A program made the translations under genes and the position numbers. Positions 37,711 to 44,543 of a stretch of DNA of 64,000 nt are shown one piece after another; the first letter of the stretch is position 1, and every line of letters begins with the position of its first letter. The stretch covers positions 1-64,000 of the forward strand of contig NZ_AXAC01000008.1 of assembly GCF_000472665.1 (NCBI RefSeq), written 5' to 3'. The notes below the pieces were generated by a model. That model searched no databases, had not been told where the DNA came from, and was given only the letters and a program-made list of their open reading frames with translations. Origin of the DNA: Acetobacterium malicum subsp. dehalogenans DSM 11527. GTDB lineage: Bacteria; Bacillota; Clostridia; Eubacteriales; Eubacteriaceae.

Positions 37711-38193
37711 TTACTTCCGCCGCGCCACAATCCGCACAATCCGCGGCCGGTTATAGCGCTGGGCAATGATACAGGGCATGTTGATGGCCAGGGCATAGAT
37801 CAGCATATAAAGAATCACGATCGGTGGCGTAAAAAAGCCGAAGATCCAAAAGGGCAGAATCGCCAGCCAGTGAATCATTTCGGCCCGGCAGGATTCCAAC
37901 AGGTATTTGTCGAGATTATCTTTTTCAAAACTGACCAGCTTTTTCTTTTCAAAACCGCCCTTGACCAGCGAACCGCCATCGGGCAGGTATTTTTTCCAAC
38001 GCCGCACCCGGAACCACTTTTGATGGATCTCGCCATCTCTTTCCCAACGATGGGCCCGGTAAAACCAGGCGGCGTAGTCAAAAAAACGATCCGGCAAGCG
38101 GGTGCAGATCAGGGCCGCACCAACCATCAGCAACGGCCAGACAATAAAACACAGCAGAATGGTCAACACCTGAGGCAGAAAAATAATTTGCAT
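37711..38193 (-). CDS. CrtO-like acyltransferase (glycosyl-diaponeurosporenoate type)
   Basis: A 160-residue protein with two N-terminal and two C-terminal membrane segments around a basic central loop containing YRAHRWERDG, RVRRWKKYLPDGGSLVKGGFEKKKL and ESCRAEMIHW. This is the pattern of the staphyloxanthin acyltransferase CrtO, which esterifies the glucose of the carotenoid with a fatty acid. It is the last gene of the four-gene operon, 18 bases after the glycosyltransferase. No CrtM or intact CrtN homologue was noticed in the window, so the actual lipid acceptor is open. Confidence 0.75.
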   Translation of the reverse strand: MQIIFLPQVLTILLCFIVWPLLMVGAALICTRLPDRFFDYAAWFYRAHRWERDGEIHQKWFRVRRWKKYLPDGGSLVKGGFEKKKLVSFEKDNLDKYLLESCRAEMIHWLAILPFWIFGFFTPPIVILYMLIYALAINMPCIIAQRYNRPRIVRIVARRK

Positions 38194-38210
38194 GCGCTGC
38201 TCCTCTCTAC

Positions 38211-39377
38211 TTATTTATCCAGTCTAATTTCCCGGTCTTTCCAGATAACCGGGCGACCCAGTATTTTTTTTGCCAATGACCGTAAAAAAATCAGCAGATA
38301 AAAAAGCAGCAGCGGCGGATAAAAGACGATGCTGATCACTGAGAAGCTGCCGATATTCCGGGCGATGCGGTTCAGTTCCAGCACCCAGATGCCATAGCAG
38401 GCGGCCATTATCCCGGCCTCGAGCCACTGCTGCCCAACCAGATTAAGAACCAGATAAAACGGTGCCGAGGCCACTGCGGTGATCCAGAAAAAAACCAGGA
38501 CAATCACAAACAACGGCGTTTTCGCCACCCCGGCGGCCTGATTTTTGGTCCAGCCCTGGATCAGCTCCCGTAGCCCGCCGCGGTACATCCGATAAGACAC
38601 GTCGTGATCCCCCATAAACAAAGCAAAGGGAATTTCTTTTTCACGGAGTTTTTCACCCAGGGCAATATCATCGACGATGCTGTCTTTAATGGCGGTATGT
38701 CCGCCCACGGCCTGATAATCGGCCCGGCTGATTAAGATCACGGGGCCATAGAGACCGATCTGATAGGGATGCCTGCTTTTATGAATTTTTTGTTTTTGAG
38801 TTTTTTGCTCTTGTTTTTTTTGAGCACGCCCCACCGGCAAGCCCAGACCATTGGCCCCCATCTGGATGCAATTAAAAAACAGCGACAAGGCCTCGGTTTT
38901 GTTCTCAATCTGATGATAGGGCATCACCGAGATCACCCGACCATTATTTTGATGGGCCATTAACAGCTTGCCGATCCCGGTCGGACTCAGCCGTACATCG
39001 GCGTCCAGAAATAACAGCAGCGTCCCGGTGGCCGCTTCCCCGCCCTGCTGGCAGGCCCAGGACTTGCCCAGCCAGCCGGCTGGTCGCGGAGCTGAGGTAA
39101 TCAGCCGGGCCTCAGCTGCGTTGGCGATGCGGGCTGTTTGATCGGTGGAGCCGTCATCAACACAGATAATTTCGTGAATATCATGCGTCTGGTTTCTTAA
39201 ATCCCCCAGCAGCAAAGCCAGGTTTTGTTCTTCGTTCCGGGCCGGGATGATAATCGACAGCCGCGGTGTTTGGTTGCCCCGGTCTCGGGGATCACCTCGC
39301 TCCAGACCGGGAAAACGATAAAAAAGTATCCAACTGGCCGCCAGCCCCAGCACCATCATGGTCCCGACGATGATCAT
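38211..39377 (-). CDS. CrtQ-like family 2 glycosyltransferase
   Basis: A 388-residue membrane-bound GT2 enzyme. An N-terminal helix anchors the protein; the catalytic domain has SIIIPARNEEQNL, CVDDGSTDQT, the D-x-D motif in FLDADVRLS and the acceptor base region VDDIALGEKL; QxxRW is represented by MYRGGLRELIQGWTK. Three C-terminal helices follow. This matches 4,4'-diaponeurosporenoate glycosyltransferase (CrtQ) and relatives. Its ATG overlaps the preceding stop by 4 bases (ATGA), so it is translationally coupled to the interrupted desaturase-like gene. Confidence 0.82.
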   Translation of the reverse strand: MIIVGTMMVLGLAASWILFYRFPGLERGDPRDRGNQTPRLSIIIPARNEEQNLALLLGDLRNQTHDIHEIICVDDGSTDQTARIANAAEARLITSAPRPAGWLGKSWACQQGGEAATGTLLLFLDADVRLSPTGIGKLLMAHQNNGRVISVMPYHQIENKTEALSLFFNCIQMGANGLGLPVGRAQKKQEQKTQKQKIHKSRHPYQIGLYGPVILISRADYQAVGGHTAIKDSIVDDIALGEKLREKEIPFALFMGDHDVSYRMYRGGLRELIQGWTKNQAAGVAKTPLFVIVLVFFWITAVASAPFYLVLNLVGQQWLEAGIMAACYGIWVLELNRIARNIGSFSVISIVFYPPLLLFYLLIFLRSLAKKILGRPVIWKDREIRLDK

Positions 39378-41083
39378 CGTCGGCCCCCCGAATCATCACC
39401 GGACTGATCTGCACGACCCTGTTTTGCGAGCCGCTTGATCACCCCATCCGCCGCCAGCTTACCGGTCAGGATCGAGACCGGCAGTCCTGAGGGACTGAAG
39501 GTCCATTGCCCGGCCTGATAAATATGGAGTAGCGGGGTTTCAATGGTTTTGGCAATTTTTCGAAACTGGTTGACCGCCGGTAGTTTTCCGGCGGTCGCCT
39601 CGTCGCGAAAGGCCCAGCCGGTAATGGCTCCGTCAGAATTTCCAGTGAGCCGCTCAATCGTCAAGGGGGTGGAACTGAAGCGCTGTTCAACCTGTTCGGT
39701 CAAGCCGGGGAAAATGCTGTTCTCCAGCACCACCATCATCTGCTCTTCGCACAACGCTTTAAAGGCCGGATACCAGCCTGCTTCAGCGATGGCTTTGACC
39801 AGCCGGTAATCCATTAAGGTGCTGACAATCACCCCGGTTTTTCCGGCTGGAGCCAGGGTCGGATCCCGGAGCGCCGGGCAGGAAATCTCGTAGGTGGTCA
39901 GGGCCAGATATTCCCGGACCCAGGCTTCCAAAGCGGTCTGCTTTTCCGCCGCCGATCGGGCCGGATCCGCCAGCACCGCCTACCAGGGTTCTGACCGGAT
40001 GGCCGAAAGCCCGGCTTTGCTGGGGGTATAAAAACAATGGGGGCCGCAGCGCGGAGCAAAATAAGCCGGGTCCAGATTTACTCCCAGGTAGAGGGTCAAG
40101 ATCGAGTCCCCGCCACGGTTTTCGCGGATCTTTTGTTGCTGTTCCCGAACCTGCTGGCTGGGTTCCCAGCGTTCCCCGAAATCAACGGCGTGATAAAGGG
40201 CCTTCATATCGCCACACCAGATCAGTTCCCGATAGCCGAAGCGGCGGCCATCCCGAGTGGTCACCTGTCGGGCGTGGATATCGATCTGGCTGATCTCGGT
40301 GTTCAGAGCCAGCTCGCCCTGGTGGGCGACAATAAAATCACGCAGTGCGGTGACCAGCCGCCCGGTGCCACCGATGGGATAGCTGTAATCACTGTATAAA
40401 CCAAAATAACTAAGGGCAAAAAAAGCCGGCATCTTTTCAAAAAAGTGCTGGATAATGACATCGATCAGCGCCTGATTTTTGGTAAAGCGCCGCAAATAAT
40501 CCTCAATCGGTTCACTGAGTTTCTGGGCTTTGCGGATATTCACCTGGTATTTAAGCAACCACGGCAGCAGCGTTTTAAACAGATAGTCCTTGTCCCTGGT
40601 CAGATCCATAAACAGCGGGTTTTCAATGCCGTAAAGGACCTCCATATAACCGGTGACTTTACGGATTTCGCTGATAATGGCGGCAATTTCGGCTTGATTG
40701 TCGGGAAATTTCGCACTCAGCATGGCGGCATAAGCAGCCAGACTTTCCACTCCAGTTAAGGTCATCTGGGCATCTTCAATGCCGATCACTACCGGATTAT
40801 TAACAAACTCCAGCTCAATCCCCAGTTGCGCTAACATCGGAAAAACAATTCCCGAATTTTCAAAGGCCCGGATGCCGGCATCAAAGGTAAAGCCCTGGCG
40901 GCTGAAGCTCCCCACCAGGCCCCCGGCCTTTTCGCTTTTTTCACAGAGTAGGGTCGTATAACCGGCTTTGGCGGTATAGGCAGCGCTGGTCAAACCGGCA
41001 ATCCCGGCACCGACGACAATCACATCATAGTCGTTCCCGGCAGCCACCGTTCCGTTTGCAGCGTCTTTTTTAAAATCTTTCAT
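39374..41083 (-). pseudogene. FAD-dependent CrtN/CrtP-like desaturase/oxidase with in-frame TAG
   Basis: One continuous frame of 570 codons with a TAG at 39982-39980. Before it: a 20-residue leader, FAD-binding GAGIAGLTSA, LCEKSEKAGGLVGSF and the IGGTGRLVTAL block. After it, the same frame continues for 201 codons and closes with IYQAGQWTFSPSGLP, the normal C-terminus of phytoene desaturase-like enzymes. The start at 41083 follows GGAGGT. CAG to TAG would explain the break. A GTG four bases past the TAG could restart the second part. With the stop read as sense, it would be a CrtP/CrtN-like oxidoreductase acting on an isoprenoid or lipid. Confidence 0.8.
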
Positions 41084-41098
41084 CACAACCACCTCCAT

Positions 41099-42973
41099 CT
41101 AGCCCAGCAACCCATCGATCACCGCCTGGATCGCCACCGGCTTACCGTTTCTGGTGTTCTGAATGCAGCGGCTTTCGCAAAGGGCCAGATCCAACGGCGT
41201 TGTTTCAATCCTGATCTGGTGTTCAGCGCAATAGGCTTCCAGCCGTTTCCTGGCGCCGACCAGATTCCCCACCGTAACCCGGCGCATGATACCGCGGATA
41301 TCCAGATCCCGGCCCCGGGCTTGCATCCCAATCGAGCAATAGGGATGCTCACAGTATTCACAGCGGGAGGCCTTCTGCATCAGGATTCGGATTTCGGCCG
41401 GGACATCGGCATAGAGTTTTTCGGCGGTCACCGGTTTGTCAAGGATTCGTACCATCTTCTTGCGCTCTGGCTGATAGACATAGGGCCGCAGACCCCGTTT
41501 TTTGAGCACGGCATTGGCCGCCGAAATCCCCGATGTGGTCACGGTTGGCGTGCCAGTACCCATCACCGTCGATTCGCCGCAGCAAAACAGATTGTCCCAT
41601 TCGGTCCGGGTATGGAGCCGCTTGAACATATGCTGCCCCAGCATCTGTTTGGGACCGGCCACCGCCCCACCATTTTTATTGGTATAACGCTCGATCGTCC
41701 GGGGCGTGGCCAGTTCGACGTAACGGATTGCTTCGCCAAAGCCGGGAAAGCGGTTTTCCAGCACTGCGATCAGCCGGTCTTTTTCCAGCACTTTTCTGGC
41801 CAGATAATCGGCTTCCTCACCCTGTTGCCAGTTTTCAAAGCTGGGGCCGATGGCCAGCACCACATGGCTACTGGCATCACAGAGGGTCTGGTCATCAAGA
41901 CTGGAAATATAGACGGTAATCTCACTTTCGTCGAGACAGTCCGGATTGCCCACCAGCATTTCCACCGGCTCGCTGTCCGGCGGGATCACCGCTTTGTCGA
42001 CCTGGGCATAGAGCACCACACTGGGATAGGTAGGCACCTGTCGGGCTGCCCAGCGGGCCCGTTCCAGACTCAGATTGGGCCGATCGATGAGTTTGCCATA
42101 TAAATTCCAGACCGTTCCCGAATAGATCAGATCCCGGCCAAATAATTTTTCACCACTGCTCAGTTCCACCCCCACCGGCCGGCTATGCTCAAAAATAATC
42201 CGGGTCACTGCTTGTTCCAGCACCATCGTACCCTTATTTTCTTCAATCACCTGCTCCAGCTTGCCCGGCAGAAAAATGGTGGAACCGGCGGGATAATAGC
42301 TGCCACCGACATGGTTATCGACAAACATCACCGCGGCCAGCACCGCCGGAGCTTCTTCCAGCGTGGCATAGCAATAGGTGGAAGTGATCTTGTCAAAAAA
42401 TTTGAAAATTTCCGGATCACTGAAATAAGCCGCCAACAGACTGCGGGCACTTTTATTTAAATAACCCAGAAACCGGGCATAGGACAGCGGGTGTTTGATC
42501 AGACTTTTAAGGGCGCCCCGGGCTTCTGTTTCATCCGGGGTGGTATAATTGGGATTGGTTACCATCACATCGCCATACATTTTTTCCAGATCCCGGTAAA
42601 AACGCCGGATATTGGCTTGTTCCGAGGGGAACACCGTGCCCAGCTGCGCGGCGAAATCATCGATATCAGCCCCAAAGCGAATCACATGGCCCTTGAAATG
42701 CATGCAGTAAAGCAACTCATGTTTGACCACCTCAATCGGTTCCTCGAGACAATCAAAAACAAAGCGATGGGCGTTAAAGCCCTGATCACCAAAGCCGAAC
42801 AGCATCGCCGCCCCAATATCAAAGGTCACCCCATTGCGTTTAAACACCCCGCAGGAACCACCGGGATTATAGCTTTTTTCAACCACTGCCACCTTCAAAC
42901 CGCTTTTCGAAAGTAAACTCCCGGCCGTCAGACCAGCTAAGCCGCCACCAATAATAATCGCATCGTATTCCAT
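41099..42973 (-). CDS. FAD-dependent desaturase-like oxidoreductase with Cys-rich C-terminal domain
   Basis: A 624-residue protein. Residues 1-500 form a CrtI/CrtISO-like flavoprotein: GGGLAGLTAGSLLSK, VVEKSYNPGGSCG, a central helical domain, and CGESTVMGTGTPTVTTSG near the C-terminal FAD contact. The last 120 residues form an extra domain with CEYCEHPYCSIG, YCAEH and LCESRCI, seven cysteines that could bind an Fe-S cluster, as in GltD-type N-terminal domains but here C-terminal. GGGAAGAG precedes the ATG. It is the first gene of the operon; the next gene starts within 20 bases. Reaction unknown; a saturase, isomerase or desaturase of a polyisoprenoid is likely. Confidence 0.82.
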   Translation of the reverse strand: MEYDAIIIGGGLAGLTAGSLLSKSGLKVAVVEKSYNPGGSCGVFKRNGVTFDIGAAMLFGFGDQGFNAHRFVFDCLEEPIEVVKHELLYCMHFKGHVIRFGADIDDFAAQLGTVFPSEQANIRRFYRDLEKMYGDVMVTNPNYTTPDETEARGALKSLIKHPLSYARFLGYLNKSARSLLAAYFSDPEIFKFFDKITSTYCYATLEEAPAVLAAVMFVDNHVGGSYYPAGSTIFLPGKLEQVIEENKGTMVLEQAVTRIIFEHSRPVGVELSSGEKLFGRDLIYSGTVWNLYGKLIDRPNLSLERARWAARQVPTYPSVVLYAQVDKAVIPPDSEPVEMLVGNPDCLDESEITVYISSLDDQTLCDASSHVVLAIGPSFENWQQGEEADYLARKVLEKDRLIAVLENRFPGFGEAIRYVELATPRTIERYTNKNGGAVAGPKQMLGQHMFKRLHTRTEWDNLFCCGESTVMGTGTPTVTTSGISAANAVLKKRGLRPYVYQPERKKMVRILDKPVTAEKLYADVPAEIRILMQKASRCEYCEHPYCSIGMQARGRDLDIRGIMRRVTVGNLVGARKRLEAYCAEHQIRIETTPLDLALCESRCIQNTRNGKPVAIQAVIDGLLG

Positions 42974-43196: not shown

Positions 43197-44543
43197 ATGA
43201 TTTTATATGGACTCAATCCCCATCAAATGATCCCCACAGCCCAGGCCCTGCGGCAAAAAGGCAAAGCCGCCCGGTCCGTTGTCAGCTTTGTAAACCAAGG
43301 TACCTTTAATCCAGTTAACCGGGATGTCAATATGATGATCGACGAGCAAAACCGCACCCGGCTGCCCGAACTCATCGATCTACGGCGGGAACGGATGGCG
43401 GTATCGCCCTTCACCTTTTACCGCGGCACTGCCCTGATCATGGCCCATGACCTGGCTCAGCAGGCCATCACTGGGGCGCCGCTGGTAATCTGCGGCGATG
43501 CCCATATCAACAATTTCGGACTGTACGCCTCCCCCGAACGACGGCTGGTTTTTGACCTCAACGACTTCGACGAGGCCGCCCCCGGCCCCTGGGAATGGGA
43601 TTTGAAGCGCCTCGTCACCAGCATTATCCTTTGTGGCGAAGATCTGGGAATGACCGATGCTCAGGTCAAGGAAGCGGCCACCAAAGCCACTTTCCACTAT
43701 CGCTACGGCCTCCGCAAACTGCTGGAAACCAGCTCCATGCATCGCTTTTATAGTAGCATCGGCGAAGATGACATTCTCGATTCAGTGTCCAAAAAAAGCA
43801 GGAATGCCTATAAGAAAGTCATCAAAAAAGCCAAAAACCGCAACTCGCAACAGGTAATTTCAAAAATGACCCAAAACGACGCCTATGGCCGCCGGGTTTT
43901 TACTGAAAATCCACCGGTCCTCACCCATCTGGATGCCGGTCTGGCCGGCGAGGTTGAAGCCGCCTTTGAAGCCTATAGGCAAACCGTTCGCCCGGATATC
44001 GCGCTGCTATTATCCCAGCATCTTTTGACAGACGTGGCCCGGCGGGTTGTCGGCGTCGGCAGTGTCGGCACCCGCTGTTATCTGCTGGTGTTAACCTGTG
44101 AAAATGCCAGCCACCTGGTGCTCCAGATCAAAGAAGCCTCCCAATCGGTGGTGTCCCGCTATAACCCGATTGTCGGCTCCCCCCTGAGAAAGCTCACCCC
44201 CGAACAGAACAACGGCCTGCGTGTTATCACCTGTCAGCAGATTCTGCAGGCCTACTCGGATCCTTTTCTGGGACACTTTCAGGCCAACGGTCGGGATTTT
44301 TACGTCCGTCAATTCCGGGATATGAAGGGCTCCTTTGAAATGAATGAATTGACCAGTCAGGGCTTTCTTGATTACGTCGAAGGCTGTGGCCTGATGCTGG
44401 CCCGGGCTCACGCCCAAAGTCCCAACGCCAACTACGTGGCCGGCTACATGGGCAAGTCCACGGCCTTTGAAAAAGCCATCGTCAAGTGGTGCTATGGCTA
44501 TTCCCGCCAGGTTTACCGGGATTACGATAATTTTGTCAAGTAG
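43197..44543 (+). CDS. DUF2252 family protein
   Basis: A 448-residue protein with the DUF2252 signature: FYRGTALIMAHDL, CGDAHINNFGLYASPERRLVFD and FDEAAPGPWEWDLKRL, which resemble the catalytic loop of aminoglycoside-kinase-like folds (GDAHxxN, DFD). The C-terminal half ends with YVRQFRDMKGSFE and LARAHAQS. Function is unknown; a kinase-like activity is suggested by the fold motifs. GGAGG precedes the ATG. It is divergent from the FAD operon, with a 220-base region between them that holds no other gene. Confidence 0.88.
   Translation: MILYGLNPHQMIPTAQALRQKGKAARSVVSFVNQGTFNPVNRDVNMMIDEQNRTRLPELIDLRRERMAVSPFTFYRGTALIMAHDLAQQAITGAPLVICGDAHINNFGLYASPERRLVFDLNDFDEAAPGPWEWDLKRLVTSIILCGEDLGMTDAQVKEAATKATFHYRYGLRKLLETSSMHRFYSSIGEDDILDSVSKKSRNAYKKVIKKAKNRNSQQVISKMTQNDAYGRRVFTENPPVLTHLDAGLAGEVEAAFEAYRQTVRPDIALLLSQHLLTDVARRVVGVGSVGTRCYLLVLTCENASHLVLQIKEASQSVVSRYNPIVGSPLRKLTPEQNNGLRVITCQQILQAYSDPFLGHFQANGRDFYVRQFRDMKGSFEMNELTSQGFLDYVEGCGLMLARAHAQSPNANYVAGYMGKSTAFEKAIVKWCYGYSRQVYRDYDNFVK

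Follow-up and report, generated by a model that had tools for sequence, protein, structure and literature searches.

A tight flavoprotein, glycosyltransferase and CrtO operon of Acetobacterium and its frequent occurrence without a carotenoid synthase gene

The operon and its two flavoproteins

The DNA analysed here (the window) is a stretch of 64,000 nucleotides from Acetobacterium malicum subsp. dehalogenans DSM 11527 (contig NZ_AXAC01000008.1, positions 1 to 64,000), a member of a strictly anaerobic genus. Its minus strand carries, from 42973 to 37711, a tight four-gene operon in the order G1-G2-GT-CrtO, in which G1 and G2 are desaturase-like flavin adenine dinucleotide (FAD) flavoproteins, GT is a CrtQ-like glycosyltransferase and CrtO is a CrtO-like acyltransferase (Table 1). 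The genes leave no room for others between them: the stop codon of G1 adjoins the start of G2, the G2 and GT frames overlap by 4 bases, and 17 bases separate GT from CrtO. Such an operon is what the original prediction had described, and the layout bears it out except for the second flavoprotein, which is not intact, the single G2 frame being broken by an in-frame TAG. The closest loci found were mostly those of other Acetobacterium, with a protein of an A. wieringae metagenome-assembled genome (MAG) 94% identical to G1, and ratios of nonsynonymous to synonymous substitution (dN/dS) of ~0.07-0.29 in the genus indicate purifying selection.

Table 1. Positions of the operon genes and of features within them, in window coordinates.
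Feature	Position	Strand	Basis or remark
G1, 624-residue CrtISO/CrtI-like FAD flavoprotein with C-terminal Fe-S-type domain	41099..42973	-	PF01593, 75.5 bits
Fer4_20-like C-terminal domain of G1, residues 531-618	41120..41383	-	one [4Fe-4S] cluster predicted
G2, CrtI-like FAD flavoprotein, 574 codons plus stop, one amber codon inside	39374..41098	-	read-through translation; open in relatives
In-frame TAG in G2, codon 373	39980..39982	-	alignment with 15 relatives
GT, CrtQ-like GT2 glycosyltransferase, 388 residues	38211..39377	-	PF00535 (Glycos_transf_2), 91.2 bits
CrtO-like acyltransferase, 160 residues	37711..38193	-	PF18927, 113.8 bits (cut-off 27.3)

The codon at the interruption was compared with those of 15 relatives, 13 from the genus and 2 from the family. 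Twelve carry CAG, CAA, CCG, GCA, AAG, GAT or AAA at this position, the other three have a gap, and the part of G2 that could be aligned is free of stops in all 15. A reading of the TAG as pyrrolysine was rejected, as the best PylS match in the genome scored 25.8 bits against a cut-off of 178.15, and the ordinary codons of the 12 relatives also oppose it. The amber codon probably inactivates G2 in this genome, and with G2 interrupted the operon may not work here; it is probably without function, barring an erroneous stop or read-through. G1, GT and CrtO each have an open frame.

Pfam and NCBIfam placed both flavoproteins in Amino_oxidase/FAD folds. A quick, midpoint-rooted tree of 129 rows, which included 118 of the 120 cluster flavoproteins (at least 470 residues) and whose long branches leave the branching order among its three clades unsure, gathered the CrtI, CrtN, CrtP and CrtD references and one further protein in one clade (8 rows, approximate likelihood-ratio test (aLRT) support 100), set G1 in a clade of its own (36 rows, aLRT 99) and G2 in a third (82 rows, aLRT 100). 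The TIGR02734 profile (crtI_fam, cut-off 238.1 bits) was passed by CrtP of Staphylococcus pasteuri (329 bits) and by the CrtN encoded elsewhere in the present genome, and it was reached neither by G1 (116.9 bits) nor by G2 in its intact form from an A. wieringae MAG (81.5 bits); the best NCBIfam match of G1 was to the carotenoid isomerase family TIGR02730 (263.6 bits), below the cut-off of 586.9. The solved structures nearest by sequence were carotenoid desaturases for G1 and G2 alike. When AlphaFold models were compared with solved structures by VIA-align, only folds of the flavoprotein type were listed, a comparison that covers G1 outside its Fe-S part. For G1 (predicted template modelling score (pTM) 0.82) the top neighbour was the gamma-carotenoid desaturase 4rep (Z 23.1, root-mean-square deviation (rmsd) 4.9 over 449 residues), tied with 3ka7 (Z 22.9) and 3nrn (Z 22.5), and for G2, modelled from the intact A. 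wieringae MAG protein (pTM 0.85), it was again 4rep (Z 29.0, rmsd 3.9 over 447 residues), the next neighbour scoring 25.6. Plasmid records held no close relatives of G1 or G2, all matches being below 60% identity. By these sequence criteria G1 and G2 are classed as neither CrtN nor CrtP. The earlier suggestion that the anaerobic version performs chemistry other than that of CrtP is supported in that neither protein groups with CrtP and both fall below the crtI_fam cut-off.

The C-terminal domain of G1 matched Fer4_20 (PF14691) at 23.0 bits, the cut-off being 25.8, and the same family was matched at E ≤0.01 in 19 of 30 G1 homologues. Residues C538, C541, C546 and C603 are invariant in all 36 G1 rows, and C599 is kept in 19 of them. 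A profile of the genus G1 proteins matched 4ylf_B over the Fe-S domain with an E value of 5e-5 (0.04 for the domain alone), and in the domain-alone alignment the four invariant cysteines fall on those of CxxCxxxxC and on the final one of CxxxC. On the ligand assignments that we take to hold for dihydropyrimidine dehydrogenase (DPD), these four residues are the full ligand set of one of the two DPD clusters, and the ligands of the second DPD-type cluster are not conserved in G1. The cysteine pattern suggests that G1 holds one [4Fe-4S] cluster next to its flavin. According to PMC3382138, CrtI can use quinones without oxygen and, with reduced FAD under anaerobic conditions, acts as an isomerase, so that a built-in electron relay would fit an anaerobic desaturase, saturase or isomerase.

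Distribution of the gene set and of the carotenoid synthase

The last steps of staphyloxanthin synthesis, to which the original prediction had likened the operon, were represented by the plasmid-borne crtOPQMN cluster of S. pasteuri. GT is ~30% identical to its CrtQ (E ~1e-47) and the window CrtO ~31% identical to its CrtO, and this homology upholds the likeness as far as these two enzymes are concerned. GT and CrtO also occur apart from the flavoproteins: two loci (L187 and L188) have GT, CrtO and UvdE (UV-damage endonuclease) in a row with no G1 or G2, their GTs being the closest found to staphylococcal CrtQ (~38% identity), and four others (L193, L194, L195 and L197) have GT-CrtO pairs with no desaturase nearby, lying near a nitroreductase/methionine sulfoxide reductase fusion (Pfam assignment on the L197 copy) and near a protein that we take to be rubredoxin-like.

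CrtM and a clear CrtN had been noted as missing. Both are absent from the window, but the search of the rest of the genome found them as an adjacent crtN-crtM pair on contig 13, where CrtM scores 226.6 bits on SQS_PSY (the squalene/phytoene-type synthase family) and CrtN 440.9 bits on TIGR02734. An internal TGA suspected in this CrtN was dismissed, since the flagged codon is the terminal stop and the frame is open over 499 codons. With both enzymes encoded, a C30 carotenoid could still be the acceptor in this genome, and strains that carry crtMN may use GT and CrtO to complete such a carotenoid as well. The pair is followed on contig 13 (58811-63767, L083) by genes for a small membrane protein without a Pfam match, a DUF92 protein and a PF14249 tocopherol-cyclase-like protein. 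Across the seven crtM-bearing Acetobacterium genomes, the DUF92 gene stands beside crtM in all seven, the PF14249 gene in six (the G001 stretch stops short of it), and in five the small membrane protein is matched over the greater part of its length; it is a speculation that the DUF92 and tocopherol-cyclase-like genes supply an O2-free hydratase-like step.

The gene set recurs beyond chance. Full-length G1 was found in 12 of 19 Acetobacterium genomes and CrtO in 15, and the survey of neighbourhoods in anaerobes that had been suggested turned up similar sets outside the genus. SQS_PSY was present in 7 of the 19 genomes and CrtN in 6. CrtO accompanies CrtM in all seven genomes that have the latter, an association short of significance (Fisher p 0.25), and SQS_PSY is missing from 8 of the 15 genomes with CrtO, three of the eight being single-contig assemblies. 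Five genomes without SQS_PSY (G002, G004, G010, G017 and G018) have all four frames open over the matches; G1 lies ~12 kb from the rest of the set in G002, and the single-contig G010 is without CrtN too.

A profile search with G2 gave 157 relatives in named genomes, of which 80 loci were used; they come from Bacillota, Chloroflexota, Spirochaetota, Thermotogota, Actinomycetota and others, and no heliobacterium is named among these 80. An archaeal label on one of them (L127, a Micrarchaeota MAG) probably reflects mis-binning, because its proteins sit among those of Clostridia and other bacteria in the tree. Genome scans outside the genus took 49 of the 80 loci, in 48 genomes; the other 31 comprise 10 Acetobacterium loci, whose genomes were covered by the scans of the genus, and a further 21, of which some lie on short contigs. 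Following the flavoprotein tree, the 48 genomes were divided into 33 with a G1-paired or basal G2 and 15 with a G2 of the short-chain dehydrogenase (SDR) type. In the group of 33, SQS_PSY was found in 3 and CrtO in 21, with stops interrupting one of these CrtO copies. Of the six in this group that are labelled as cultured strains or isolates (L116, L118, L122, L125, L133 and L142), only L142 has SQS_PSY. The 15 SDR-type genomes had SQS_PSY in 4 and CrtO in 2. Of the 47 G1-paired or basal loci, 27 have G1 immediately before G2, 28 have GT no more than 6 kb away and 23 have CrtO within that distance. Since SQS_PSY is often absent where the module is present, the module often does without the enzyme with which C30 and C40 carotenoids begin.

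The SDR-type loci (for example L129, L150, L173 and L182) carry a G2 sister clade in anaerobes of several phyla and have a short-chain dehydrogenase in 29 of 34 cases and a SnoaL-like protein in 26; they are possibly a polyene or retinoid cassette. The A. bakii loci (L074, L075 and L137) keep G1, apart from GT-CrtO, have a G2 of the SDR-type clade and carry a TspO-like gene nearby.

Light-related neighbours

The genes around the flavoproteins were counted from mechanical open reading frames (ORFs), so that the counts are lower bounds. UvdE or heliorhodopsin lies within 6 kb of 12 of the 47 G1-paired or basal loci as against 1 of the 34 SDR-type loci (Fisher p 0.006). A heliorhodopsin beside G1 at L159 was missed by the ORF count and found by tblastn, and at the SDR-type locus L157 the heliorhodopsin is more than 6 kb from its G2. 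Heliorhodopsin adjoins G1 or G2 in several lineages, and in one Acetobacterium genome (G014) UvdE stands directly upstream (~70 bases) of G2-GT-CrtO. A membrane protein without a Pfam match, which we take to be TspO-like, was found near 11 of the 47 loci.

Genome-wide, heliorhodopsin occurs in 17 of the 33 G1-paired or basal genomes as against 9 of 396 Bacillota genomes with a score above the cut-off (Fisher p ~2e-15, a value without phylogenetic correction in which the 33 genomes span several phyla and the background is one phylum). Among the 19 of the 33 that were assigned to Bacillota by record title, it was present in 10 (p ~2e-10). Two of the nine background carriers (G074 and G159) appear to be the same as G459 and G504, their contig coordinates being identical, and CrtO is also present in four of the nine. 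Only 6 of the 17 carriers were found to have heliorhodopsin close to G1 or G2. Among the 48 G2 genomes scanned, SQS_PSY is absent from 23 of the 24 that bear heliorhodopsin. The light link as such is already known, as PMC8612252 describes Znf-heliorhodopsins flanked by genes for phytoene desaturase, amino oxidase, SQS-PSY and UvdE; what is added here is that the link extends to anaerobes which have this module and no SQS_PSY. In the window itself, a gene for a DUF2252 protein (427.5 bits) lies at 43197-44543, divergent to the operon.

Proposed pathway, alternatives and known systems

We propose, with moderate confidence, that the operon type encodes an oxygen-independent route to a glycosylated and acylated membrane lipid, probably a polyprenoid, whose role is related to light; this route would not generally need a carotenoid synthase. 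G1 and G2, as paired FAD enzymes of the carotenoid-desaturase fold, would modify a long isoprenoid one after the other, the likeliest substrate being a single polyprenyl chain, and the one-cluster [4Fe-4S] domain of G1 would exchange electrons between the flavin and ferredoxin or a flavin pool, a relay that would stand where aerobes use O2 or quinone. By homology, the CrtQ-like GT would then put a sugar on an oxygen function and the CrtO-like enzyme a fatty acid on that sugar. The product would be a membrane-anchored, probably conjugated lipid, for which the gene context suggests the light-related role. A polyisoprenoid or other membrane lipid had been named as a possible product in the original prediction; the frequent absence of SQS_PSY beside the module favours it, although a polyisoprenoid substrate is itself our interpretation.

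Several observations weigh against this proposal. We infer the substrate and product, and likewise the redox direction and the role of the pathway. The Fe-S domain of the window G1 scores under the Pfam cut-off, and a wider G1 profile aligns best to 4ylf_B in the FAD part and not in the Fe-S part. Three of the eight CrtO-bearing, SQS_PSY-free genus genomes are incomplete in the set, with G1 partly deleted in G011, remnants in G016 and no G1 in G014, and most hosts outside the genus are MAGs of uncertain completeness, in which the absence of SQS_PSY is weaker evidence. Heliorhodopsin was found in none of the 14 Acetobacterium genomes scanned, so that the product in this genus would not serve heliorhodopsin, and it occurs in 7 of the 15 SDR-type genomes, which mostly lack CrtO. 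Moreover, this genome has its own CrtM and CrtN, and every CrtM-bearing genome of the genus has CrtO, so that a C30 carotenoid is a conceivable substrate of GT and CrtO in this organism. An alternative, which we consider unlikely, is that the set tailors a C30 carotenoid made by CrtM and CrtN into the fatty-acid ester of its glucoside. CrtP would be replaced by the addition of water or another O2-free reaction, as in alkaliphilic heliobacteria, and genomes free of SQS_PSY would use an unrecognised synthase. The crtN-crtM pair of this genome, the homology of GT and CrtO to CrtQ and CrtO, the PF14249 gene in the crtNM cluster and the co-occurrence of CrtO with CrtM (for all its lack of significance) speak for this alternative. 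So does the report in PMC7143216 that heliobacteria make C30 carotenoids, including OH-diaponeurosporene glucoside esters, with crtM not found; a missing SQS_PSY is for this reason no strict exclusion of a C30 product. It is opposed by the absence of SQS_PSY from more than half of the CrtO-bearing genus genomes and from 30 of the 33 others, and by the sequence placement of G1 and G2 outside CrtN and CrtP.

We regard it as quite improbable that the flavoproteins act on a non-isoprenoid lipid, by fatty-acid desaturation, isomerisation or saturation, with GT and CrtO building an ordinary glycolipid. Their membership in the broad amine-oxidase fold and the usual lack of SQS_PSY in the hosts would agree with this, but the top sequence neighbours of both are carotenoid desaturases, by fold 4rep leads for G2 (29.0 against 25.6), and the GT and CrtO partners together with the light-linked neighbours point to pigment-like chemistry. 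A separate matter is whether the operon in this particular genome has become a decaying relic without function, which falls a little short of probable and is compatible with the proposed lipid pathway in intact relatives. The amber codon in G2 is in its favour, as is decay elsewhere in the genus, where G011 has lost a large internal part of G1 and G016 keeps no more than remnants of the operon; the three open frames count against it, and so does the dN/dS of G2 against G015 (0.19), which is not above that of G015 against G007 (0.26) and, being without relaxation, implies that the stop arose recently, stems from an assembly error or is suppressed.

If the polyprenoid lipid pathway proposed above is correct, the glycosyl-acyl finishing step of CrtQ and CrtO is uncoupled from the making of carotenoids, and anaerobes in several phyla can be expected to have an oxygen-free pathway for isoprenoids (or similar compounds) that includes an Fe-S-linked enzyme of the desaturase fold; the link to UV repair and heliorhodopsin would bear on how anaerobes handle light. 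A wider conjecture, which we hold to be very doubtful, is that a single polyprenyl chain, joined head-to-tail, is turned into a conjugated polyene resembling a retinoid or carotenoid by the G2 family and a G1 or SDR partner, without phytoene synthase or oxygen, in anaerobes belonging to several phyla, the product being a photoprotective glycolipid in Acetobacterium and possibly supplying or working with heliorhodopsin in relatives. It would bear on the source of a polyene chromophore for anaerobic heliorhodopsin carriers without phytoene synthase.

The portions of the literature searched gave no description of this four-gene set or of an Fe-S-fused desaturase of this kind, the nearest account being that of the Znf-heliorhodopsin neighbourhoods in PMC8612252. 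The finishing enzymes are known ones; what is new is the flavoprotein pair with its Fe-S-type domain and the different distribution. The staphyloxanthin cluster shares with the operon a CrtQ-like GT2 enzyme and a CrtO-like acyltransferase at ~30% identity, and the S. pasteuri cluster has a gene annotated TspO/MBR, as some G1/G2 loci adjoin a TspO-like gene. In contrast to that cluster, CrtP and CrtN here give way to a pair of flavoproteins that belong to different clades from theirs and of which one bears an Fe-S-type domain, CrtM is unlinked and often missing from the genome, and the hosts are anaerobic. With CrtISO (TIGR02730) and CrtI (TIGR02734, PDB 4dgk and 4rep) the flavoproteins have in common the FAD fold and the overall architecture, TIGR02730 being the best named family for G1, but they lie far below the cut-offs in deep separate clades, and G1 has the additional Fe-S-type domain. 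That domain shares its CxxCxxxxC...C pattern with the N-terminal Fe-S domain of GltD and DPD (Fer4_20, PDB 4ylf), and differs in that G1 has the ligands of one cluster only, fused C-terminally to a carotenoid-desaturase fold. The OH-diaponeurosporene glucoside ester of alkaliphilic heliobacteria is likewise a product of anaerobes with a sugar and a fatty acid on an isoprenoid; its pathway differs in that no genes were identified in PMC7143216 for the last three steps.

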